Positions 2,367-23,335 of a stretch of 23,335 bases of DNA are shown here, in pieces. The first letter of the stretch is position 1; the number at the start of each line of letters is the position of its first letter. Made by a program: the position numbers and the translations under genes. The notes under the pieces are model-generated. The model worked only from the letters and a program-made list of their open reading frames with translations, was not told the origin of the DNA and searched no databases. Source of the DNA: a virus; IMG/VR virus record IMGVR_UViG_3300020411_001284, positions 1-23,335 of that record. The stretch is one strand, 5' to 3'.

Positions 2367-2523
2367 ACATCTCTATATTGTTTCTTACATCATTTATATC
2401 TATATTGTTTTTTGTTGCAAGAGTATTGGCCGTCTGATGCCAATATGCCTTGAACTCTCCATGTAAGGCTCTTCGTTCTGCTTTAACACAATTAACTATC
2501 CTTTGGATTTCTTTGTTTTTCAT
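2329..2523 (-). CDS. unknown 64-aa protein
   Basis: Small, charged, largely helical protein with no family I recognise. The frame is open from a GTG at 2529, but the ATG at 2523 is preferred because GAGGAG lies 5 nt before it. The gene begins inside the end of the cytidylyltransferase gene (32 nt overlap) and its 3' end overlaps the 117-aa gene, so all three are tightly coupled. Confidence 0.6.
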   Translation of the reverse strand: MKNKEIQRIVNCVKAERRALHGEFKAYWHQTANTLATKNNIDINDVRNNIEMYDVAEIKNRSVH

Positions 2524-2956
2524 TTTCACTCCTCGCTGTGCGTTTTCTGAGATCAGTACTACTGAAAGAATGATCTCGTTTATTATAGATTATTTCAATC
2601 TTCCTTTTATAGCAAATTCTTTTTGCTGTAAATTCTATGTCCTTATATTCTTCACCCAATATCCTAACATTAATAGGTAAGGTTAAAAATATATCTTCTA
2701 ATTCTTTTTCTGTATTATAGACGACTATCTCATCTACATTTTTATTTGATGCTAATTGAATTTGTCGTTCAACGACACTTTGTACTGGAGGATTCTTTTC
2801 TTTTCTGTCTTGAGTTGGATCGACTTGCAGAGCTGCTATCAGGTAATCACAATGTCTTTTGGCCTCTTCTAGCATAACACAATGTCCTGCGTGAAGGAGG
2901 TCAAAAGTACTGCAGGTTATTCCAATGCGTCCGCAATTTTTGTAATCTAACCTCAT
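2492..2956 (-). CDS. cytidylyltransferase-like nucleotidyltransferase (TagD-like)
   Basis: A 154-aa nucleotidyltransferase of the HxGH superfamily. H22-A-G-H25 in TFDLLHAGHCVML is the nucleotide-binding signature, and SFSSTDLRKR near residue 130 matches the C-terminal S-S-T-x-x-R/K motif of glycerol-3-phosphate and related cytidylyltransferases. It should activate a phosphorylated polyol, sugar or choline-like substrate with CTP (or ATP), releasing pyrophosphate. Length fits the TagD type. GGAG precedes the ATG, which overlaps TGA of a short upstream frame (ATGA). Together with the glycosyltransferase downstream it suggests making and attaching a polyol or sugar group. Pantetheine-phosphate or heptose adenylyltransferases share the fold and cannot be excluded. 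Confidence 0.8.
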   Translation of the reverse strand: MRLDYKNCGRIGITCSTFDLLHAGHCVMLEEAKRHCDYLIAALQVDPTQDRKEKNPPVQSVVERQIQLASNKNVDEIVVYNTEKELEDIFLTLPINVRILGEEYKDIEFTAKRICYKRKIEIIYNKRDHSFSSTDLRKRTARSENEKQRNPKDS

Positions 2957-3091
2957 AACTCTATCTCCACTGCCTGTTCACCTTTTGACGATGTAGTTTT
3001 TGCTAATTTCAGATCTTCTTCTACTAAATAACATAACAGTAGCAATAAGAGATTGTAAACTAAATGTTGCCATTTCTTTCACATTACTCAT
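2953..3091 (-). CDS. small gene split over two frames (frameshift or recoding)
   Basis: An ATG at 3091 with GGAG upstream opens a 37-codon frame starting MSNVKEMATFSLQSLIATVM and ending at 2978 in an arginine-rich tail. In the +1 frame, open from about 3078 to 2953, the codons give a more protein-like ending (YLVEEDLKLAKTTSSKGEQ, then AVEIEL), whose TGA overlaps the next ATG as ATGA, the usual junction here. That frame has no ATG and no ribosome site of its own. I infer one protein of roughly 55-60 aa that crosses frames near the TTATTTAG around 3026-3033, by a sequencing or assembly indel, a real mutation, or programmed frameshifting. Function unknown; the first part could be a weak membrane or amphipathic helix. 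Confidence 0.5.
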
Positions 3092-3134
3092 TATATATCT
3101 CCGAAACACATAATCAACACAAAATCAACACAAT

Positions 3135-3638
3135 TTAGGTATTCAATAACTCTAATCCCCATTTCTGTATAACATCATGTACATAATCTGGGTAATCTCC
3201 TGGATTATCTCCATAAGATTCTAGTTTTTTCTTGAACCAAACACCTGTTTGCTCTTCTCCATTTAAATATTCTTCACTATAAACATATACACCTGCAAAG
3301 TTATAGTATTCATCTGTATAGGTCATCATTAGTTTAACACCAGGATCTATACGAATCAAATACTCTCCTAATCTTTCAAACCATTTATAGGGTGATGACC
3401 ATGAAGATGTGATTGTAACATTATCACCTTCAAAACCAGATATGTAAGCAACCTGAGGACCTATTTCTTCCTCCATGTATTCGTTGTCTATAATTTCTAC
3501 ATCAGATAAGAAATGTGAGAACTCTAATCCTCTTTCGTCATAGTCCTCTCTTATAGAATCAAATACTTCCTTAAAAGCTTCTCTAGCTTGAAAGTTTCCT
3601 TTTATAAGATTTACAGTGCTATAAACATTGTTTGCCAT
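3135..3638 (-). CDS. Api92-like (DUF1281-type) hypothetical protein
   Basis: The 167-aa product starts MANNVYSTVNLIKGN and carries a WSSPYKWFERLGEYL block followed by a strand-rich TYTDEYYNFAGVYVY block. This resembles the ferredoxin-like domain of Api92-type phage proteins, which typically begin MAN and have a W-x-x-P-x-x-W segment. Their role is unknown. The frame is open further up to 3710, but the ATG at 3638 is preferred because that upstream stretch overlaps a separate small gene and this ATG gives the family N-terminus; the GGGTGA before it is a modest ribosome site. Acidic and soluble. Confidence 0.7.
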   Translation of the reverse strand: MANNVYSTVNLIKGNFQAREAFKEVFDSIREDYDERGLEFSHFLSDVEIIDNEYMEEEIGPQVAYISGFEGDNVTITSSWSSPYKWFERLGEYLIRIDPGVKLMMTYTDEYYNFAGVYVYSEEYLNGEEQTGVWFKKKLESYGDNPGDYPDYVHDVIQKWGLELLNT

Positions 3639-3837
3639 TTCTATCACCCATTTGAAAAACGTAATCCTTAGCCGTCTGCATGGCAATTCTCCTGCCCTCA
3701 GACTGATCAATAATATGTTGTGTAAATACTGGTTTGCCTAATTTAAAAAAGGTTACCACAAATTGCTTGATAGGAACATCTTGTTGTTCTATCTTAGCGC
3801 TAAAAAAACTGTTTCCAAATGATGATATAAATCGCAT
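3619..3837 (-). CDS. unknown 72-aa protein
   Basis: Small protein beginning MRFISSFGNSFFSAKIEQQD, with no family I recognise. A GGAG lies 7 nt before the ATG. Its last 20 nt overlap the Api92-like gene and its start follows the 80-aa gene by three bases, so it sits in a tight operon. The C-terminal half (QSEGRRIAMQTAKDYVFQMG) looks helical. Confidence 0.6.
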   Translation of the reverse strand: MRFISSFGNSFFSAKIEQQDVPIKQFVVTFFKLGKPVFTQHIIDQSEGRRIAMQTAKDYVFQMGDRNGKQCL

Positions 3838-3840
3838 ATT

Positions 3841-4083
3841 TTACTCCACTGGGTATTTGGTTTGACTAAAGTTATATCTCCTGCTCAGCAATAATTCTAA
3901 CTTTTCGTGTGCTGAGGCTAATTTTTCTAATTCCATGTCTATTGCTTGTACCACGTCAGGGTGTTCACCTATACCCGCTGGATTTTCTAAATATACTCTG
4001 ACGTTTGCTTTAGCAGAGGCAATCTCGCCTCTATACCTTGTCTCGAGAGCTTCTAATAATTCTTTGCCTATTTCTGATACCAT
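3841..4083 (-). CDS. unknown 80-aa helical protein
   Basis: Predicted all-helical with a possible coiled-coil hairpin: an N-terminal helix (KELLEALETRYRGEIASAKAN), a Pro/Gly turn (ENPAGIGEHP) and a second helix rich in Leu and Glu. GAGGG lies 5 nt before the ATG. It is the first gene after a 177-nt untranslated leader with a late-promoter-like site at its far end, so it may be expressed late. No family recognised. Confidence 0.65.
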   Translation of the reverse strand: MVSEIGKELLEALETRYRGEIASAKANVRVYLENPAGIGEHPDVVQAIDMELEKLASAHEKLELLLSRRYNFSQTKYPVE

Positions 4084-6773: not shown

Positions 6774-7173
6774 TCTTTAGTTTTTCAATCTCATTACCAT
6801 TCTTTTCAATATTAGCATCTTGCATAGCATCAATTAATTTTTGTGCTCTTTCTTGATCTGTATCTTTATGTAAATCTGGATCAACAATTTTCTCTAGTTT
6901 TAAAAATTCTATCCTTGTATTTGGAACATACCTCCATGTATATCCATCATCTCCATATACTCCAAAAACTGTTTCTGATAAACCTATCTTAACTATTAAT
7001 GCTGGTTGTCCATCAAGTATAACTTTATCACCTTCCTGGAAGGCAGGATTAAATCTAAACTTTGCTCCTTTAACAAAAGAGCCAGCCCAATCTCTAATTG
7101 CAAGACCTGCCATTAGAGTGAGTAAAAACCCTATGAACTCTACATAGTATGCTGATAATTCTATCGTTGGCAT
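6760..7173 (-). CDS. mini-MscS-like membrane protein
   Basis: One N-terminal membrane helix (about 8-30, FIGFLLTLMAGLAIRDWAGS) is followed by a beta domain (about 36-96). There GDKVILDGQPALIVKIGL, a conserved turn, and YTWRYVPNTRI follow the G-D-x-V ... I-G-L ... V-P-N pattern of the MscS mechanosensitive-channel beta domain. The tail is charged and helical. MscS channels normally have three or more helices, so this is a single-helix version; it may assemble as an oligomer or act as a membrane scaffold. It follows the two-TM gene by three bases. Whether it gates ions, aids lysis or modulates host turgor is unknown. Confidence 0.65.
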   Translation of the reverse strand: MPTIELSAYYVEFIGFLLTLMAGLAIRDWAGSFVKGAKFRFNPAFQEGDKVILDGQPALIVKIGLSETVFGVYGDDGYTWRYVPNTRIEFLKLEKIVDPDLHKDTDQERAQKLIDAMQDANIEKNGNEIEKLKNGKK

Positions 7174-7176
7174 TTC

Positions 7177-7530
7177 TTACTCTTTCTTGTGATCTGTTGA
7201 TGTACTGTTTACATATAAACCAAACCAGGCTGCTCCGGCACCTACTATTACTGAAACAAGTCCTGCTTGTTCTGCATTTGGTGTAGGTAATTCCATAAAC
7301 CAAGTTACGACTTTAAATAACAAGTAGATATACATGCTAATAAATGCACGAGGGAATAATCTCCATCTACTAAAATATTCAGGGGCAACCCAAATCCAAC
7401 CTCTGTCATCAGGTGCATGCCACCAAGGTTTGCCGTCTCCTGCTGGAGCCTCTTCTTCTGCTGGTGCTGCTGCTGCTTTTAATGCTTCGTATTCTGCTAA
7501 ACTTAAATTAACATTGCTGTCTTCTGGCAT
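7177..7530 (-). CDS. two-TM phage membrane protein (holin-like candidate)
   Basis: A 117-aa protein with an Ala/Glu-rich N-terminus, a Trp-rich segment (KPWWHAPDDRGWIWVAPEYF), two membrane helices (about 60-80 and 88-108, the second VSVIVGAGAAWFGLYV) and a short charged tail. I recall homologues as conserved hypotheticals in cyanophages. Size, two helices and charged tail would fit a holin, but nothing seen proves it and no endolysin is adjacent. AGGAG precedes the ATG, and the best late-promoter match in the window lies 27 nt upstream, so late expression is likely. It could instead be a virion or membrane scaffold protein. Confidence 0.75.
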   Translation of the reverse strand: MPEDSNVNLSLAEYEALKAAAAPAEEEAPAGDGKPWWHAPDDRGWIWVAPEYFSRWRLFPRAFISMYIYLLFKVVTWFMELPTPNAEQAGLVSVIVGAGAAWFGLYVNSTSTDHKKE

Positions 7531-7557
7531 AATATTCTCCTATAATATAAGCACTTA

Positions 7558-7565
7558 TATTTATA
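7558..7565 (-). promoter_or_regulatory. T4-type late promoter TATAAATA
   Basis: Minus strand TATAAATATAAGTG lies between gp41 (upstream block ends at 7571) and the two-TM gene, leaving a leader of about 20 nt with an AGGAG site. The same extended sequence recurs at 4252-4259. It starts the membrane-protein and oxygenase block, consistent with a switch from early/middle to late genes. Confidence 0.65.
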
Positions 7566-7570
7566 TAGGA

Positions 7571-8947
7571 TTAGAACTTAAAATCAGAGAACTTGTCTTC
7601 TTCTTTTCCTCTGTCAAATACAGGAATATCTATGTTAGCATCTGTTAAATTTTGTTGTGCTGAGTCTTCTAAATCAAACAATTTCATTTTAGCTCTATCA
7701 ACACCTATCATAAATCTTTTGTTTCTTGTAGGATCTGAATATCTGTTTTTCAACTGTTTAATCATAAACTGACCTAATTGTTCTAATTCTTCTGTACTAA
7801 TAATAGCAAACATTAAGTCTGCTGTAGCAGGCAAACCAAAACTTTCTGAGGTGTCTGTTAAATCTATATCACTACTATTAAAACCACTCCTAGTTGTTTG
7901 TGTTGCACTAACAATAGGAACATCTTGTTCTACTGCTAACCCTCTAAGTTCTTCTGCAATACTCTTAATAACTGTATAAGAGTTAGCACTACTACCTGGC
8001 CTAAACCTAGAACTTGTACATATATTTAAATAATCTATGAATATAATATCTGGGAAGAAACTTCTTTTAAGTTTCAATTCATTTATTAATGCCTTAAAAT
8101 GTCCTGCATGTGCAGATGCTGTAGGATATTCTTTAACAATTAATCTACCTTCAATCTTATCATTAATTTTCTTTACCCTATCTTCAAACATAGGTTTAGA
8201 TAAGTCTTTTAAATCCATTATAGGAATATTCATTAGGTTAGCATCTACTCTCTCTGCTATTCTTTCTTCTGACATTTCTAGGGTAATATATAACACATTT
8301 TTACCCTTAGCGATGCAAGCAGACGCCATATGACACATAAACAGGGATTTACCTACACCAGTACCCGCTAATGCTATATTTAATGTTTTATTAGATAAAC
8401 CACCCTCTGTTATCTTATTAAACATATCCAAATCAAACTCTACTTTTTCTTCTAACCTATGATAGAAGTCATATCGTTTATCAGCATCTTCAATAAAATC
8501 ATGACCAACATTAGTATCAAATCCTACACTCAATGCCTCAGATAAAATACTAGGTAAAGCATCTGTAGACATATCTTTCTTTTTGCCATCTATAATTTGG
8601 ATACTTTCCATAACACCCAAATACAATGCTTTATCTTTACAGAACTTTTCTGTTTCGTCTACTAGCCAATTCTTATCTACTTCATCACCATTTAATGTAT
8701 TAATAACTTCCATACATTTAGCATGACTATCTTCATTTAAAGATTTGTCCTCATTAATTGCTAATAGGATTGCCTGTTTACTTGGAGGATTATTATATTT
8801 TTCTACAAAGTCATATATAACTTTAAAGACAGTCTTATCTTCAAAGGCCATAAAATAATCAGGCTTTAGGAAAGGAATTACTTTCCTAACATAGTCGTCA
8901 TCTTTAATCAGATTCTCTAATATTACTTGTTCTATTCTGTTCTTCAT
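7571..8947 (-). CDS. 41: replicative DNA helicase, T4 gp41 type
   Basis: A 458-aa DnaB/RecA-fold helicase that unwinds the lagging-strand template, moving 5'-3' with primase. The N-terminal 150 residues are the helical assembly domain. Walker A is AGTGVGKS (194-201), Walker B is IIFIDYLN (about 300), and SATQTTRSGF and the arginine region follow. Length and order match T4 gp41. The start overlaps the zinc-finger gene by 44 nt and has no clear ribosome site, so it is probably coupled. The C-terminal acidic tail (EEDKFSDFKF) resembles a protein-interaction tail. Upstream lie uvsX and the zinc-finger gene, so recombination and helicase genes are co-transcribed. The primase gene is not in the window. 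Confidence 0.95.
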   Translation of the reverse strand: MKNRIEQVILENLIKDDDYVRKVIPFLKPDYFMAFEDKTVFKVIYDFVEKYNNPPSKQAILLAINEDKSLNEDSHAKCMEVINTLNGDEVDKNWLVDETEKFCKDKALYLGVMESIQIIDGKKKDMSTDALPSILSEALSVGFDTNVGHDFIEDADKRYDFYHRLEEKVEFDLDMFNKITEGGLSNKTLNIALAGTGVGKSLFMCHMASACIAKGKNVLYITLEMSEERIAERVDANLMNIPIMDLKDLSKPMFEDRVKKINDKIEGRLIVKEYPTASAHAGHFKALINELKLKRSFFPDIIFIDYLNICTSSRFRPGSSANSYTVIKSIAEELRGLAVEQDVPIVSATQTTRSGFNSSDIDLTDTSESFGLPATADLMFAIISTEELEQLGQFMIKQLKNRYSDPTRNKRFMIGVDRAKMKLFDLEDSAQQNLTDANIDIPVFDRGKEEDKFSDFKF

Positions 8948-9098: not shown

Positions 9099-10140
9099 CG
9101 GATACTTCTTCTCCAACCATATCTACTGACCCTATAGTATATCTTTTCTGTATCCAGTCAGTAAATGATTTCTGTTGTAAAATAGGCAACCAAAAGTCTT
9201 TAGACTCTGTATCCTTTAATCTAACTTTAGGCTCAGGAAGTATCTCACCTGTTTCAGGATCTGCCTTCTGATACCAACCATTACTAGGTTTAATTACATG
9301 TCCAGACTCTAATGCCATTTCTAACAAACCAGACCATTTATGTATGCCTTTCTCCCAAGACACTTCAACAGGTATCTTAGACTTCTCTCTAACAAACCTA
9401 GACTTTTCTACATTAATTACAAATTCATAACCTGTAACTTCTGTTCCTGTCTTTTGTTGCCTTCTGCCAATAATATAAATGTTATCTGCAGAATAATAAA
9501 CACCTGTTCCACCACTAACAACATCTTTAGGAAACAATCCTATCTCTTTATATGTGTGGTTAACTACAACAGCAGGTATATCTTTAATTGTTAAGTGAGG
9601 AGTAATCATTCTAAACAAGGATTTCATTTGTTTAGCTCTTGTCATGTCTGCTACACTTTTACCATCAAGAGCATCTTCAACTTCTTTTTTACTTGCCAAG
9701 TTACCTACACTATCAACAATAATCATAACATGATCGCCTCTTTCAATACCATTTAACTGTTGCATGGAATCATGTTTTAATTGTTCAACATCTGTAATAG
9801 GTGTATGTACTACTCTATCAGTATCTATTTCAAATGTTTCAAAATAAGACTGAGGAGCACCAAACTCACTATCATAGAATAAAATAACACCATCATCATA
9901 CTTGTCTAAATAAGACTTTGCCAACAACATAGCAAACGCTGTCTTAAAGTGTTTACTAGGTCCTGCAAATACAGTAAGTCCTGGTGTAAGTCCACCATCT
10001 AATTTCCCACTCAGTGCAACATTAACTGCTGGTACTGAAGTTTGAATTAGATCTTTAGAATTAAAAAACTTAGATTCAGTTATAATATCTGTTTCTCTAA
10101 TCGTGGAATTTTTCTTAATCCTGTCTATTAGATTTGCCAT
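9064..10140 (-). CDS. uvsX: UvsX RecA-like recombinase
   Basis: Strand-exchange recombinase of T4-like phages, acting with UvsY and gp32 in recombination-dependent replication and repair. The 358-aa product has Walker A GPSKHFKT (60-67), very close to the GPSKSFKS I recall from T4, an acidic segment ILFYDSEFG, Walker B-like VMIIVDSVGNL, and the DNA-binding loops near KKEVEDALDGKSVADMTRAKQ. The ATG at 10140 follows AGGAGAAAAG, whereas the open frame extends to 10167 without support. The start lies 26 nt inside the UDP-sugar dehydrogenase gene, and a sigma70-like promoter lies inside that gene about 50 nt upstream. The acidic C-terminus (EEVSDEDIQEEYEKV) is typical. Confidence 0.95.
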   Translation of the reverse strand: MANLIDRIKKNSTIRETDIITESKFFNSKDLIQTSVPAVNVALSGKLDGGLTPGLTVFAGPSKHFKTAFAMLLAKSYLDKYDDGVILFYDSEFGAPQSYFETFEIDTDRVVHTPITDVEQLKHDSMQQLNGIERGDHVMIIVDSVGNLASKKEVEDALDGKSVADMTRAKQMKSLFRMITPHLTIKDIPAVVVNHTYKEIGLFPKDVVSGGTGVYYSADNIYIIGRRQQKTGTEVTGYEFVINVEKSRFVREKSKIPVEVSWEKGIHKWSGLLEMALESGHVIKPSNGWYQKADPETGEILPEPKVRLKDTESKDFWLPILQQKSFTDWIQKRYTIGSVDMVGEEVSDEDIQEEYEKV

Positions 10141-10915
10141 CTTTTCTCCTAATTTTATTAGCTGCAAGTGCAGCTTCCATAATGTTACTACTATAGCACA
10201 GACTTGAACTATGTGTCAAGTCTTTTGGTAAACAAGTTCCACCAAATCCATATTGTCCATCAGGACCTGGAACTTGCCAATGTGTACCTAATGTTTCATC
10301 TTCCATAAAGAACTCTCTAATGTCTGGATAATGTAAATCATATACATCACAAATTTCTTTAAACTCATTTGCCAAACCTACATTAACTGCTAGTGTAGCA
10401 TTTCTAAACATTTTAATTGCTGAGGCCTCTCCTGGATTAACAACCCATACTCTTTTATCAAATATGTTGGATAACCACATAACAAAATCATGATGATTAC
10501 CTGGTGTAGCACCAACAAGAATAGGAAGATTTGTGTCTAATACATCTTCTTCCCAATGTTTTTCTCTAAGAAACTCTGGCATAATAACTGCGCCATATTT
10601 TTTAGTTAACATTAATGCCTGATCAGGACCAACAGTACTTCTTATAACAGGTATAACAGTACTAGCACATGATCTTGTAGATAAATCGTTCAGGACTTTT
10701 TCAACAATACTTATGTCTAAAGTCTTCCACCCACCTAAGTCTGTAGGAACACAAACAAAAGCATATTGAATACCTGACCAATTTTCTATCTCATATCCTT
10801 TATCAGGATCATGGATTTGTATATCAGTTCCTTCGTAGAATGTATCTAATAAAAGCTCAGTAGCTTTACCTACGAATCCGTGTCCGATGATAGCAATTTG
10901 TTTATCTGTTCCCAT
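10115..10915 (-). CDS. short UDP-glucose/GDP-mannose dehydrogenase family protein
   Basis: NAD-dependent UDP-sugar dehydrogenase family. The N-terminal Rossmann motif is IIGHGFVGKA (GxGxxG, 11-16), followed by FVCVPT, PEFLRE and the catalytic cysteine motif GFGGTCLPKD with C228. Full-length enzymes have about 390-450 residues; this one ends at 266, soon after the catalytic loop, so the C-terminal UDP-binding domain is missing. The catalytic residues are kept, which argues against decay, and the gene simply ends where uvsX begins. Similar short forms may exist in marine phages. It may oxidise a nucleotide sugar to a uronic acid in a larger complex or have another substrate. Its ribosome site is weak. 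Confidence 0.82.
   Translation of the reverse strand: MGTDKQIAIIGHGFVGKATELLLDTFYEGTDIQIHDPDKGYEIENWSGIQYAFVCVPTDLGGWKTLDISIVEKVLNDLSTRSCASTVIPVIRSTVGPDQALMLTKKYGAVIMPEFLREKHWEEDVLDTNLPILVGATPGNHHDFVMWLSNIFDKRVWVVNPGEASAIKMFRNATLAVNVGLANEFKEICDVYDLHYPDIREFFMEDETLGTHWQVPGPDGQYGFGGTCLPKDLTHSSSLCYSSNIMEAALAANKIRRKDGKSNRQD
10190..10219 (-). promoter_or_regulatory. sigma70-like promoter for uvsX, with dyad
   Basis: Minus strand TTGACA, 18 bp, TATAGT (or CTATAG at 17 bp), inside the 3' end of the dehydrogenase gene and about 50 nt before the uvsX start. An 8-bp inverted repeat (AGACTTGA / TCAAGTCT) spans from the -35 box into the spacer. Confidence 0.6.
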
Positions 10916-15622: not shown

Positions 15623-16882
15623 CTAAAATTTTACATCAAAGGTTTTGTTAAAATCTGTGCCTCTTCTTATATCATGTTCTTTTACAAAGTTCCAAAAATC
15701 TTTTCTATGTTTTTCTAGTTCTTCACCTTCGAATCTATTTGCCTTTATCCACTCTACAGACTTCTGAAATTTTACAACCTCTCCTTCTGTAAACTGAGGA
15801 TAGGTTTTCATTGATTTTAATCCTTCTTCCATAATACTTATATGAGTATCGTCGGCAATTTGTGCTGAGAGGTGTTTTGGATCTACCATATAAGGCATGT
15901 CTATTGTTAGATGAGGAAAGGTTTGTTTCATCTCTGCCATTTTAAAAATGAATTCTTGTATATTGAATATAGATAAGAAATTAAATGTACACATGATACC
16001 TACTTCTATTCCATTAGCTAATATTCTAAGTAGGTTTTCTTCAAATTGATCTACTTTTAATCCATGTCTAATATACTCTGCTTGTTTCCCCCATGAATCT
16101 ATACTGGCATATATTCTAGTATTAGGTATATCTTTTGCTTGGTTAATATATTTTTGTACTCTTTCTTTCGTAACCATAAGATTAGAATTACAATGGAATG
16201 TCAATCCTTCTCTAGGATTTGCCTTAACATATTTTAGAAGTTTATATGTATTCTTATCTAATAAAGGCTCTCCTCCTGTTACTCTAAGAACAAATAAATG
16301 TTCATATGCCTGTGGAAACCATTTCCAAAACTTATCTACATAGGGAGAGTTTTCTATTTGAGGATTATCTATAACATTATAGTCCTCAGATAGTTTATAA
16401 GGACCATGCTCTTGTATTTCTTTTTCCCATGAAGTACTAAACACAGGACCACAATAACTACATGACATTTGACATTTATTTGTGAAAGATATTTCTAAAT
16501 ATTTAGGATACACATAATCTAGTCCTGCGTCTGTTGCTTCTTTGACTATATGTCTATTATGTTTAAAAAATTGAGCTGCAAGTGTTTGCCTATCTGATAT
16601 CTCACCAAGATCCTCTACTTCCCAACAATAAGAGCACTCTGAAGGTCTGCTACCTTGCAACATCTCTGCTCTTTTTTCTATTTTTTGAGGTGTGTTATGT
16701 AAGTCAGAGTCTAAAGGAATTTTCTGTGTAGGACAATGATAACAGGAATGACTTTGCCCTGTTCCTAAGTGCATTTCTAAATGATACCATTTTAGTACAC
16801 AGAAACCAGGCCCTACTTTATCCTGTTCGTCTTTGATAAGTTGGAGGGCTTCTATTTGATTTTTATTTAGCTTTCTTTCCAA
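15623..16882 (-). CDS. radical SAM protein, twitch-type
   Basis: A 419-aa enzyme with the radical SAM cluster motif C137-x3-C141-x2-C144 (CQMSCSYC) and TGGEPLL (202-208). N-terminal C28, C47, C50, C83 and C86 (CYHC, CSYC) suggest a second iron-sulfur or metal site, as in the twitch/SPASM-related group. It would use SAM to start radical chemistry on a peptide, sugar or small molecule; the substrate is unknown. No precursor peptide is obvious next to it. The start is TTG inside the end of regA (20-nt overlap) with no clear ribosome site; translation may be coupled to regA, and the next ATG is far inside. It lies between regA and hsp20. Confidence 0.85.
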   Translation of the reverse strand: MERKLNKNQIEALQLIKDEQDKVGPGFCVLKWYHLEMHLGTGQSHSCYHCPTQKIPLDSDLHNTPQKIEKRAEMLQGSRPSECSYCWEVEDLGEISDRQTLAAQFFKHNRHIVKEATDAGLDYVYPKYLEISFTNKCQMSCSYCGPVFSTSWEKEIQEHGPYKLSEDYNVIDNPQIENSPYVDKFWKWFPQAYEHLFVLRVTGGEPLLDKNTYKLLKYVKANPREGLTFHCNSNLMVTKERVQKYINQAKDIPNTRIYASIDSWGKQAEYIRHGLKVDQFEENLLRILANGIEVGIMCTFNFLSIFNIQEFIFKMAEMKQTFPHLTIDMPYMVDPKHLSAQIADDTHISIMEEGLKSMKTYPQFTEGEVVKFQKSVEWIKANRFEGEELEKHRKDFWNFVKEHDIRRGTDFNKTFDVKF

Positions 16883-19197: not shown

Positions 19198-19872
19198 TTA
19201 TCTGATTTTCTCCTTAACAGAAGTCGAATCTGAAAGTTCAAGATCTATATGCTTACCTTCTGCCTCAGCGATAGCATCGTCTAAGTCACCAAAGGTTTCA
19301 AGTTTATTACTAACAGGCTCATCATTAAGGCTAGTAGTAACAGCTGGCCAACCAAAGGCTTTAACATTGTCCAGAACATTTTCTGGTTTACTTTTTTCAT
19401 AAGGATCTCCTTCAATGTCGTCTCCAAATCCTTCTTCAACACCTGACCAGACAAGTTCTTTGTCATCATATATGCCAGCATATCTCCATGACCTTACACC
19501 AAAACCTAGGTTGTCTTTTCTAACATCCATACCTAATTTAATAGTAAAGTCTGCACTACCATCTGGTAATAGTTTAACATTAACAAGGTTCTGATCTATT
19601 GCCCACTCGTTCATAACGAATGTATCATTAACACTAACGCAATAAATATCATCTATTCCTGCTAGTCTAAACTCATGATATAAAGCTTCAAAACCTGGTA
19701 ACTGTTGACCAGAACATGTAGGGGTAAACGCTCCAGGCAATCCAAATACAACAATCCTTTTTCCTTCGAATAAATCTATAGAATTAAGATCAATCCACTT
19801 GCTTACGCCGTCAATTGTCTTAACATGTTTCTTAAAAATTGCTGGAGGTATTTGTGGGTTTAATTCACTCAT
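19198..19872 (-). CDS. peroxiredoxin (Prx5-like)
   Basis: Thiol peroxidase of the AhpC/TSA superfamily. The motif PGAFTPTCS (46-54) with peroxidatic C53 and the context FGLPGAFTPTCSGQQLPGFE is the Prx5 signature; no second resolving Cys is obvious in the core. It would reduce peroxides using a thiol donor, presumably host glutaredoxin or thioredoxin. At 224 aa it is about 60 residues longer than a simple Prx5; the extension is acidic (DDIEGDPYEKSKPENVLDN ...) and contains no glutaredoxin CxxC. The ATG at 19872 follows AGGAGG; the frame to 19896 is not used. It sits oddly inside the clamp and clamp-loader operon, between gp45 and gp44. Confidence 0.9.
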   Translation of the reverse strand: MSELNPQIPPAIFKKHVKTIDGVSKWIDLNSIDLFEGKRIVVFGLPGAFTPTCSGQQLPGFEALYHEFRLAGIDDIYCVSVNDTFVMNEWAIDQNLVNVKLLPDGSADFTIKLGMDVRKDNLGFGVRSWRYAGIYDDKELVWSGVEEGFGDDIEGDPYEKSKPENVLDNVKAFGWPAVTTSLNDEPVSNKLETFGDLDDAIAEAEGKHIDLELSDSTSVKEKIR

Positions 19873-20047
19873 CTGTTTCCTCCTGAGAAAATACATCTAA
19901 CTCACCCTTCATTACTTTTCTAACGAGTGAGATAGCTGGGTTAGGGCGAGTAAATATATACTCAACTGTCTCACCAAATTTGTTGAATTCAACAATCCAA
20001 CCGTTTGTCGCCTCTCTTAAAGAGACCTCTAACTTTTCTTCATCCAT
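19865..20047 (-). CDS. unknown 60-aa acidic protein
   Basis: Starts MDEEKLEVSLREATNGWIVE, with an alternating strand pattern and a helix (AISLVRKVMKGE). AAGGAG lies 5 nt before the ATG. It is directly downstream of gp45 and overlaps the peroxiredoxin start by 8 nt. No family recognised, though similar small proteins next to gp45 exist in marine T4-like phages as I recall. Confidence 0.65.
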   Translation of the reverse strand: MDEEKLEVSLREATNGWIVEFNKFGETVEYIFTRPNPAISLVRKVMKGELDVFSQEETDE

Positions 20048-20789: not shown

Positions 20790-21164
20790 TTAGGTATTAT
20801 GTTCTACTAATGTTCCAGCGGAACCATCATCAATTGATTGGATGGTGTATGAGATACCATTAGCAGTGCAATAACTTTTAATTGAGTTTTGAACTGCTGT
20901 CCAATTAGAACTTTTCAATGCACTACCATTACCTGTAGAATCCTCTACCAATGCCTTGTGTGCATCCCAATCTGCCTTGGTGGGTGATGTTATCTCTGCT
21001 GTAAATGTCAATTCATCTTCTGAAAGATCATAACTTGCTACAATACCTCTATCAGTATAATCTGCTAATCTTTCAGTGTGCAAATCTGCATCATAATCAG
21101 ATATCTTAGGCCAAGCTACTCCTGTATTTGGTCTAGTATAAATTTGCCTTACGACGTATGCCAT
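20790..21164 (-). CDS. unknown 124-aa protein, probably late
   Basis: Starts MAYVVRQIYTRPNTGVAWPK; beta-rich, Thr/Ser-rich and acidic, without membrane segments. TFTAEITSPTKADWDAHKAL and SYTIQSIDDGSAG are its clearest blocks. GGAG lies 6 nt before the ATG at 21164; the frame to 21176 opens with TTG. A TATAAATA 28 nt upstream suggests late expression, so a virion or tail component is plausible, but I recognise no family. Confidence 0.65.
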   Translation of the reverse strand: MAYVVRQIYTRPNTGVAWPKISDYDADLHTERLADYTDRGIVASYDLSEDELTFTAEITSPTKADWDAHKALVEDSTGNGSALKSSNWTAVQNSIKSYCTANGISYTIQSIDDGSAGTLVEHNT

Positions 21165-21192
21165 TTTAGTCTCCAATAATTGTTTATACTCT

Positions 21193-21200
21193 TATTTATA
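21193..21200 (-). promoter_or_regulatory. T4-type late promoter inside a hairpin
   Basis: TATAAATA on the minus strand in the 56-nt gap before the 124-aa gene. It lies within ACTCTTA-TAAA-TAAGAGT, a 7-bp inverted repeat with a 4-nt loop. Confidence 0.6.
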
Positions 21201-21220: not shown

Positions 21221-22285
21221 TTATAAAAGGTAACTTTCCATGTCATCTGGTAAGTCCTCAAACTCTAATAATCCTAACCCTTCATATCCTGGTCTAACTT
21301 CATCAGTCAACAATCCTATTCTTTTAATATTAGGAATGACTCTTTTTAAGAGATGCTTTCTTACAATTTTATATTGCTTACCTATTTCGTCTTCTTCAAA
21401 TTGGCATGCGTAATCATGTGCATCCTGTGGATCAAATCCAAACTGTTTATAAAACCCTGGTCCAAAACCAATTCTATTAAGTAATGTTGTGCAACATTCT
21501 AAAGCATACCCTGCTCTATAATTTATCTCATCTTCAGTTAGAGTCTTGAGATAATCACCTAAATAATTAATACCAAAAGTTATATGCCTTGCTTCATCTT
21601 GTAATATGTAATCCATTATCTGTGCTAAGAGAGGGTCATTGGTATTGTTTCTACATATTTGAAATGTACTTACTGCTAATCCTTCCACCACTATCTGTAC
21701 AATAATAAACTTTAAATCCCACTCTTTAGATGATAATGCAATATCAAATATGTTTTTTACACCTTCTCCAATAGGGTAGACACAACCATATCTTTCTGCA
21801 ATATATCTGCTCATAGTTTCTGCATGTCTTGCTTCGTCAGCAGCTTGTTGTGCTGCAAATAATTTTGCTTGGTATGTTGGTGCACAGCTTACAAGTTGAC
21901 CACAACATATTGCACCCATTTGTTCTCCATGCAAGATAGATGATAACTGCCACAGGTTTTTATGTTTTTGAAATTCTCTCTTATCTTCATCAGAAAGCTC
22001 TCTATATGGTCTATAATTAAACCAAAAAGGATCGTCTCCCTCAGGCCATTGTCCTAATACAACAATGTCTCCTGGATGTTCTGTATCCCACTCAATATCC
22101 TTACTAGGATTCCAGGCTCTCTCCTTACCCAACTCATATATTTTTCTAATACGAGTATCCTCATTTCTATAATCCCAATTATAAAAAGAGTCCAAAGGTG
22201 TACTAAAAGATTCTGCTAAATCTGAATCGTTCTGAGATGGAAACTCCTGAAAACTATCAGGAGTATTGACTTGGGTTATTTTCAT
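21221..22285 (-). CDS. ferritin-like diiron oxygenase-type protein
   Basis: A 354-aa helical protein with a complete class I diiron carboxylate set: E121 (LHGEQMG), E151-x-x-H154 (DEARHAE), E201 (VVEGLAV) and E231-x-x-H234 (QDEARHITFG). The 30/50/30 spacing is that of a four-helix bundle like AurF-type N-oxygenases, R2 subunits and R2-like oxidases. An N-terminal segment (ELGKERAWNPSKDIEWD) resembles those of AurF-like ferritin-superfamily proteins. No R2 radical tyrosine context or R1 partner is apparent here. It probably activates O2 to oxidise or desaturate an unknown small molecule or protein. The ATG is 5 nt after TATAAATA and lacks a good ribosome site. Confidence 0.85.
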   Translation of the reverse strand: MKITQVNTPDSFQEFPSQNDSDLAESFSTPLDSFYNWDYRNEDTRIRKIYELGKERAWNPSKDIEWDTEHPGDIVVLGQWPEGDDPFWFNYRPYRELSDEDKREFQKHKNLWQLSSILHGEQMGAICCGQLVSCAPTYQAKLFAAQQAADEARHAETMSRYIAERYGCVYPIGEGVKNIFDIALSSKEWDLKFIIVQIVVEGLAVSTFQICRNNTNDPLLAQIMDYILQDEARHITFGINYLGDYLKTLTEDEINYRAGYALECCTTLLNRIGFGPGFYKQFGFDPQDAHDYACQFEEDEIGKQYKIVRKHLLKRVIPNIKRIGLLTDEVRPGYEGLGLLEFEDLPDDMESYLL

Positions 22286-22290
22286 ATCAC

Positions 22291-22298
22291 TATTTATA
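22291..22298 (-). promoter_or_regulatory. late-promoter-like TATAAATA, 5 nt before ATG
   Basis: The minus strand reads TATAAATA-GTGAT-ATG for the diiron gene. The geometry is the same as at 1277-1284 and would place a T4-style late start at the A of the ATG. Confidence 0.5.
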
Positions 22299-22300
22299 CA

Positions 22301-22621
22301 TCAATCATCTAAGTAGTGCTTAACTGCTTGCAAATCATGTTCATTGAGTGCAATTATAGCATAATGTAATACTTTCATTAGATCCCTTCTGTGGTCATCT
22401 AAGTTACCCTTTTTGCCATAGCGTTGTGCATACTTTAGAATATTACCTATGGCAAATCCAATTCCGTGTCCACAATCACTGATAAATTCCGTTGATTGGA
22501 ATTTGTTTTTACTGTAATGACCATTATAAGTTTCATCGATATACGATTGGAGCTCCCTTATGAGAGCTCCCTCGTTGAACTTATAGGGTACATCGCCTTT
22601 CTTATTCTGAGGCATCTTCAT
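22301..22621 (-). CDS. DUF3310-like protein
   Basis: A 106-aa helical protein. The segment FAIGNILKYAQRYGKKGNLDDHRRDLMKVLHYAI carries the KYxxRYG-K-x ... DL-K-xxHY pattern of DUF3310 (annotated SaV-like nucleotide kinase), found widely in phages, where it may bind nucleotides; its reaction is unproven. Preceding residues (YIDETYNGHYSKNKFQSTEF) match the family's N-terminal DNGHY-type region. AGGAG lies 5 nt before the ATG at 22621, and a second ATG follows at 22615. It overlaps the CobS-like gene by 20 nt. Confidence 0.75.
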   Translation of the reverse strand: MKMPQNKKGDVPYKFNEGALIRELQSYIDETYNGHYSKNKFQSTEFISDCGHGIGFAIGNILKYAQRYGKKGNLDDHRRDLMKVLHYAIIALNEHDLQAVKHYLDD

Positions 22622-23335
22622 GTATCTCCTGTTCTGTTTGACTTTCAAAATCTGCTTCAAGTTCTACTGTAGGATCTACCTTAGTGTACAGATCTATAAA
22701 AGCCTGTTTGGTGTCATCATCAAATCTGTTAACACAAAGTTGAACAGCCTTCTGCTTATCACCAAATACTGCAAACGCATTAACAATATGTTCCAACCTT
22801 CTAGTTGAAATCAACTCGTCAATTGCTCCATCGTAATAAGTTCTTCTTATTACATCACTCCAAGTTACCAAGTGAGTTGCAAACTCATCGTCTGAGATAT
22901 TAGCCTTAGCCATTTTCTTAACAACGATCTTTTTCTCGGTAGCCATTGTAGGATACTCCTGCTCCACGGTTATAGCAAACCTTTCTAGGAATGCCTCGTC
23001 GAGTATGTTGGCTGATATGAATTTGCCATCATCTGAACCTCGACCTTTTGTGTTGGCTGTTGCAACAATGTTAAAGCCGGGAGCAGGAGTTACGGTTTCG
23101 CCTGTCTTCTTGTTAAAATAGGGCTTGCCTTCTAATATTGCTTGTAAGCACATCAGCTTGTTTGAGCCTCTATCTATCTCATCAAGAACTAGGACTGCCC
23201 CGCGTTTCATCGCGGTGAGGACTGGGCCTTCCCTATAAACGACGTTACCGTCAACTAGAGTATTGCCACCGATTAAATCATCCTCATCAGTTTCAATACT
23301 AATATTCACTCTTATTGCCTCTCTTTTAAGATTAG
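22602..23335 (-). CDS. cobS: CobS-like AAA+ ATPase, 5' end missing
   Basis: The frame stays open to the window edge and contains RVNISIETDEDDLIGG, GPVLTAMKRGAVLVLDEIDRG (Walker B with DEID) and a sensor region NIVATANTKGRG, followed by the arginine-finger region EAFLERF. This is the CobS/MoxR-type AAA+ ATPase of marine T4-like phages. In bacteria CobS with CobT inserts cobalt in B12 synthesis, but the phage protein's role is unproven and its partner, often a von Willebrand-type protein, is not visible. Walker A lies outside the window. A GTG at 23309 is an internal codon, not the start. The product ends with an acidic tail. Confidence 0.88.
   Translation of the reverse strand, partial: NLKREAIRVNISIETDEDDLIGGNTLVDGNVVYREGPVLTAMKRGAVLVLDEIDRGSNKLMCLQAILEGKPYFNKKTGETVTPAPGFNIVATANTKGRGSDDGKFISANILDEAFLERFAITVEQEYPTMATEKKIVVKKMAKANISDDEFATHLVTWSDVIRRTYYDGAIDELISTRRLEHIVNAFAVFGDKQKAVQLCVNRFDDDTKQAFIDLYTKVDPTVELEADFESQTEQEIHEDASE

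Follow-up and report, generated by a model that had tools for sequence, protein, structure and literature searches.

Which reaction would a diiron enzyme catalyse when it is encoded by a marine phage, and on which molecule would it act? The question is raised by an open reading frame in the window, i.e., the whole 23,335-nt stretch of viral DNA analysed here, in which a sequence-only reading had recognized a putative diiron oxygenase. NrdB and the PTOX of cyanophages are diiron enzymes already known from marine phages, but both belong to families other than that of the window protein.

Metal site, family and predicted fold

21221..22285, minus strand: diiron oxygenase ORF, 354 amino acids, ATG start; ligands E121, E151, H154, E201, E231 and H234

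The complete diiron site described previously, E121, E151xxH154, E201 and E231xxH234, was found at this numbering, and all of its metal ligands were kept in 81/81 rows of the homologue alignment. H119, Q122, Q147, D150, D190, D230 and R233 were likewise invariant in the 81 rows, and outside the core Y39, Y50, K54, W58, W66, R257 and P318 were conserved in the N- and C-terminal parts. AurF (PF11583) was the sole Pfam family above cut-off for the window protein (E = 8.1e-12, 45.3 bits as compared to a cut-off of 29.6, residues 44-294) and was matched by 77/77 members of alignment A3; such a match combined with invariant ligands lies far beyond chance. PHROGs yielded no match to the diiron protein, no characterised close homologue of it was found and, as anticipated, its substrate cannot be identified from family membership.

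The AlphaFold2 model (pLDDT 83, pTM 0.84) is a four-helix bundle (helices 99-134, 138-165, 189-214 and 218-246) whose four helices bear the ligands. In a fold search of the PDB the best matches were diiron or Mn/Fe ferritin-like oxidases only, with R2lox first (E 3e-4) and R2, CmlI (rank 25), aldehyde deformylating oxygenase and phenylacetyl-CoA monooxygenase also present; the TM values were about 0.4-0.5 (by query length), and since these scores are modest, the fold assigns the protein to the superfamily level only. Aldehyde deformylating oxygenase shares the six-ligand site and gave weak profile and fold matches; however, the window protein scored far below the cut-off of that family (22.7 vs 222.65 bits), is longer and has conserved N- and C-terminal parts. 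Uncharacterised AurF-Pfam proteins of SAR86, Halieaceae and Alcanivorax show 41-48% identity to the window protein along almost their whole length, possess the same ligands and are its true family. They differ in being cellular, the SAR86 paralogues (mostly two) being located in housekeeping or CobS-CobT contexts, whereas the window clade is placed on a long branch.

Genomic context and transcription

The earlier view that the diiron gene is phage-encoded is borne out by the T4-like genes around it. The features next to it are:

22602..23333, minus strand: CobS-like AAA+ ATPase of the MoxR type, truncated where the window ends; gene conserved in Kyanoviridae, not a demonstrated partner
22301..22660, minus strand: DUF3310 protein (PF11753, phrog_480), directly upstream of the diiron gene with a 15-nt gap; alternative starts are 22660 and an in-frame ATG near 22621
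22291..22298, minus strand: TATAAATA, element resembling a T4-type late promoter, 5 nt before the diiron ATG
20790..21176, minus strand: small protein of 128 amino acids, no family, downstream of the diiron gene; same place in L001-L003
20057..20743, minus strand: sliding clamp (gp45-like), recognized from its position and from the same gene order in HTVC008M, Mosig and Syn1
19198-19896, minus strand: peroxiredoxin (phrog_2281), near the diiron gene; retained in relatives

The window DNA polymerase is nearest to those of cyanomyoviruses (49%), and the window phage is Kyanoviridae-like; the order of 'peptidase' (VWA), CobS, small genes, gp45 and gp44 is common to the pelagiphages HTVC008M and Mosig and the cyanophage Syn1. 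In the window as well as in L001 and L002, the diiron gene is found between DUF3310 and the clamp region, and it is probably co-transcribed with the DUF3310 gene. The window contains neither an R1 nor a biosynthetic partner, in agreement with the sequence-only reading, and no electron donor gene was found in its 23,335 nt. Elsewhere in the window, minus-strand genes code for a Twitch-domain radical SAM protein (15623-16882; NF033640, above cut-off) and for a short nucleotide-sugar dehydrogenase-like protein of 266 amino acids, in which part of the usual length is missing (10115-10915). In L002, which is closely related to the window phage, a gene at 874-2418 codes for a protein of 514 amino acids similar to BtuB, the TonB-dependent receptor for vitamin B12; there was no SAR86 match for this protein, and near it a protein is encoded that by eye resembles a B12-binding radical SAM protein (2430-3878).

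The late-promoter-like element reported before the diiron gene is present and conserved in 4/4 window-clade phages, i.e., the window and its three nearest relatives. Seven copies of TATAAATA were counted in the window, all on the coding strand, as compared to 3.65 expected on both strands together; another one, at 21193-21200, precedes the gene of the 128-aa protein. Within 40 nt upstream, the element was found for 14/81 diiron gene copies (two lineages only) vs 31/834 other ORFs of the viral loci. An mRNA initiated from TATAAATA would have its 5' end at approximately the A of the diiron ATG, which makes a leaderless or read-through mRNA likely. Late transcription of the diiron gene, and with it the presumed late expression, is plausible, and read-through from DUF3310 is equally possible.

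Occurrence in marine phages and in SAR86

A first IMG/VR scan detected three full-length near relatives (L001-L003, 82-94% identity) and two fragments, and a profile scan detected 150 viral stretches with relatives, of which 80 were kept, most with 38-44% identity. There was no match in 50,697 GenBank phage records, a collection that may omit records very near the window. About 80 IMG/VR contigs (80 of 150 kept) carry the diiron gene in roughly nine unrelated phage neighbourhoods, with genes for tail sheath, tail tube, terminase, UvsY/UvsW, gp46, PhoH or tail fibre nearby; it is a recurrent marine-phage gene and not an oddity of one phage. Arrangements outside the window clade include:

L092-L101: diiron gene after gp46
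L130 type: diiron gene between a tail-tube-like gene and uvsY
L132 type: diiron gene adjoining tail sheath, tail tube and terminase genes
L116 type: diiron gene among tail fibres
L111 type: diiron gene before phoH
L161: diiron gene beside nrdA/nrdB
L154: diiron gene after an acyl desaturase

Tandem diiron copies (at 8001 and 9114) are present in L114, the second being very divergent and keeping HGEQ, DEARH, E and DETRH. A report of an AurF-like phage gene was not found in the literature, and the main text of a global-ocean auxiliary metabolic gene paper does not mention AurF, ferritin or diiron. The phage enzymes constitute a real and conserved family within a known superfamily, apparently one not reported before.

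In a maximum-likelihood tree of the homologues, the four rows of the window clade formed a group (support 100/100, stem 1.72) separate from a large phage clade of 24 rows (support 95/89), with gammaproteobacterial rows around both, and did not fall inside SAR86; a single phage clade, as would fit one phage acquisition instead of two, was not rejected (p-AU 0.33). The diiron gene is under purifying selection in the window clade (dN/dS 0.15-0.35), which supports the earlier claim that the enzyme is probably active.

SAR86 bacteria are among the commonest of the surface ocean and have genomes of about 1 Mb. A genome scan yielded 485 relatives of the diiron protein; among the best 80 of 485, which were kept, SAR86 ranked first (41-48%), followed by Halieaceae, Alcanivoracaceae, other gammaproteobacteria and Myxococcota, and Actinomycetota were present at 30-35%. 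The homologue is near-universal in SAR86 (38/40 SAR86-family genomes, mostly with two copies) and rare across its class (5/114 genomes of the class sample, one of the five being SAR86). Among the loci read, copy A is flanked by alr and pyrG, and copy B follows a CobS-CobT pair. Both members of the SAR86 pair next to copy B in L018 (3198-5943) scored below the CobS/CobT equivalog cut-offs.

In phage L111, an alternative oxidase (quinol oxidase) is encoded at 7323-7898, directly upstream of the diiron gene, and it is found at the same place in nine other contigs (L102, L107, L109, L110, L112, L113, L115, L118 and L142). This protein matches solved alternative oxidases at 1e-33, is 56-62% identical to the full-length SAR86 alternative oxidase and has a match in 34/40 SAR86 genomes, as compared to 3/113 other genomes of the class (53-57%); no paper on the SAR86 enzyme was found in the literature. 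Since the adjoining alternative oxidase is SAR86-typical and the diiron gene is near-universal in SAR86, these data suggest that L111-type phages may infect SAR86. More generally, the host may be SAR86 or another gammaproteobacterium.

Nature of the reaction

The sequence-only reading had proposed a comparison with AurF and CmlI and named amines among the possible targets, and an N-oxygenase acting on an amine, perhaps a host polyamine or amino acid, would be in line with AurF as the only Pfam family above cut-off and with distant Streptomyces and Burkholderia homologues (27-28%) whose neighbours include genes for acyl carrier proteins and AMP ligases, as is typical in natural-product clusters. 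The N-oxygenases AurF, CmlI, AzoC and Dob3 (PF11583) and the window protein, for which a homologous bundle is predicted, have six ligands in the same order. In AzoC, the reported ligands are E102, E137, H140, E198, H225, E229 and H232 (PMC6783550); six are common to all ferritin-like diiron oxygenases (FDOs), whereas it is the seventh, H225, that characterises the N-oxygenases among them, as described in work on Dob3, and the FDO family also has members that oxidise C-H bonds (PMC12154687). The published criterion (PMC12154687; PMC6783550) is a His as seventh ligand, placed four residues ahead of the fourth Glu; by this criterion the protein is not an AurF-type N-oxygenase, as the position is occupied by I in 51 and V in 30 of the 81 rows (I227 in the window). 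Moreover, the nearest solved structures are not AurF, CmlI being found only at rank 25, and no such substrate pathway was seen in phage or SAR86 neighbourhoods. Taken together, N-oxygenation is disfavoured and we regard it as unlikely.

Alternatively, the protein may handle oxygen or iron, as a ferroxidase or a scavenger of O2 or peroxide protecting the replicating phage, and not be a metabolic oxygenase. The peroxiredoxin gene 1.3 kb from the diiron gene would fit this, as would its position after an O2-consuming quinol oxidase in L111-type phages. However, the long four-helix core and the conserved N- and C-terminal residues are unlike ferritin or rubrerythrin, ferritin-type models were weak or absent, and the retention of two paralogues in SAR86 suggests separate substrates; the probability of such a role is accordingly put as low.

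In both phages and SAR86, CobS/CobT-type AAA+ and VWA proteins might serve as metal-insertion or activation chaperones of the diiron enzyme, given that SAR86 copy B follows a CobS-CobT pair and that, in L092-L101 as well as in the window clade, the diiron gene has a VWA-CobS pair within about 10 kb. Contrarily, CobS and the 'peptidase' (VWA) are conserved at the same place next to gp45 in Kyanoviridae without the diiron gene, so that their proximity in phages means little and a dedicated chaperone was rejected as a candidate. Furthermore, 12/19 contigs with the diiron gene had no CobS match (these contigs are incomplete) and SAR86 copy A is not adjacent to CobS/CobT, which renders this relationship quite improbable.

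If the gene were a neutral passenger taken from a host and functionless in the phage, this would agree with the long stem leading to the window clade (1.72 changes per column), but in view of the dN/dS of 0.15-0.35, the intact gene in about 80 contigs and the invariance of every ligand in the alignment it is very improbable.

Ribonucleotide reductase R2 and R2lox, the nearest solved structures by sequence profile and fold (7qbk and 6f6c as top matches for R2lox, which shares the six-ligand site), are highly unlikely identities as well. The Ribonuc_red_sm match is weak and occurred in 48/77 members, the AurF model scored above the R2 model for the window protein, and the NCBIfam R2lox models gave 27 vs 194 bits, below their cut-offs, in addition to the low TM. 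At the R2 radical Tyr position, which we take from E. coli R2 to be four residues after the His of the first ExxH, the 81 rows have F (70), Y (7) or M (4), with M in the window clade. The R2lox crosslink presumably joins a Val three residues after the first Glu and a Tyr five residues before the third, with residue numbers taken from the mutant names of solved structures in the fold search; A124 at the Val position is nearly invariant, and position 196, that of the Tyr, is M in 76 and V in 4. Radical and crosslink residues are thus missing, and phage L161 carries nrdA and nrdB beside the diiron gene, so the earlier judgement that the protein is not R2 holds.

With the six common ligands present, and both the seventh-ligand His and the R2 and R2lox residues missing, the window protein is predicted to be an FDO outside the characterised N-oxygenase group. 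A site with six ligands suggests that the probable chemistry is oxidation of a C-H bond or desaturation.

Proposed role during infection

The gene has a cellular (bacterial) metabolic homologue and lies inside a phage genome with T4-like genes around it, which is one of the features of auxiliary metabolic genes. We propose, at about even chances, that it encodes an auxiliary metabolic enzyme, namely an active six-ligand FDO for C-H oxidation, presumably in a dimer state and with Fe instead of Mn/Fe. Two Fe would be held by E121/E151/H154 and E201/E231/H234, the diiron centre would be reduced by a host donor of the ferredoxin or thioredoxin type, and the reduced centre would bind O2 and oxidise a C-H bond of a host metabolite, by hydroxylation or desaturation, during infection. 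Modification of virion proteins, suggested previously, found no support in this analysis. Tentatively, an acyl chain or other hydrophobic metabolite is named as the most likely class of substrate.

A lipid as the presumed substrate would be consistent with hints from several neighbourhoods. The diiron ORF of phage L154 is overlapped at its start by an acyl desaturase ORF, a Halieaceae-type locus (L034) has genes for a patatin and an AraC regulator divergent from the diiron gene, and an acyltransferase, an alkyl-DHAP-synthase-like protein or GlpD is encoded nearby in L029/L030. Each of these hints comes from one or few loci; they differ by lineage and share no common pathway. The L154 desaturase (7126-7926) is of the DesA type and had a close SAR86 match in 0/40 genomes. 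An ether-lipid partner was rejected as a candidate: the alkyl-DHAP-synthase-like gene lies near the L029/L030 copies but was matched in 0/40 SAR86 genomes, in a search without a positive control. Likewise, the diiron enzyme as the 'missing fatty-acid desaturase of SAR86' is ruled out as the sole route to unsaturated fatty acids, because FA_desaturase proteins were found in 40/40 SAR86 genomes and FabA in 37/40.

The enzyme is near-universal, usually with two copies, in SAR86, a very common ocean bacterium. A broader reading, which we regard as possible but doubtful, is that of an unnamed family of six-ligand AurF-fold oxygenases catalysing C-H oxidation, probably of acyl lipids, near-universal in SAR86 and present in many tailed phages of the sea, T4-like and others, with SAR86 as the host of at least some of them. 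According to a 2017 paper, SAR86 phages had been predicted from an iscU gene and none had been isolated by then (PMC5332604). If the broader reading is true, the diiron gene, together with the adjoining alternative oxidase in one phage group, would be a marker for candidate phages of a host that had no isolated virus as of that paper. Many different marine viruses carry the gene intact and its closest relatives are standard in SAR86, which suggests that these viruses use the diiron enzyme to alter some molecule in infected cells, perhaps a lipid. Unrelated phages have captured the gene repeatedly, which suggests that virus production is limited by this reaction. The identity of the substrate would reveal what such phages change in the cell.
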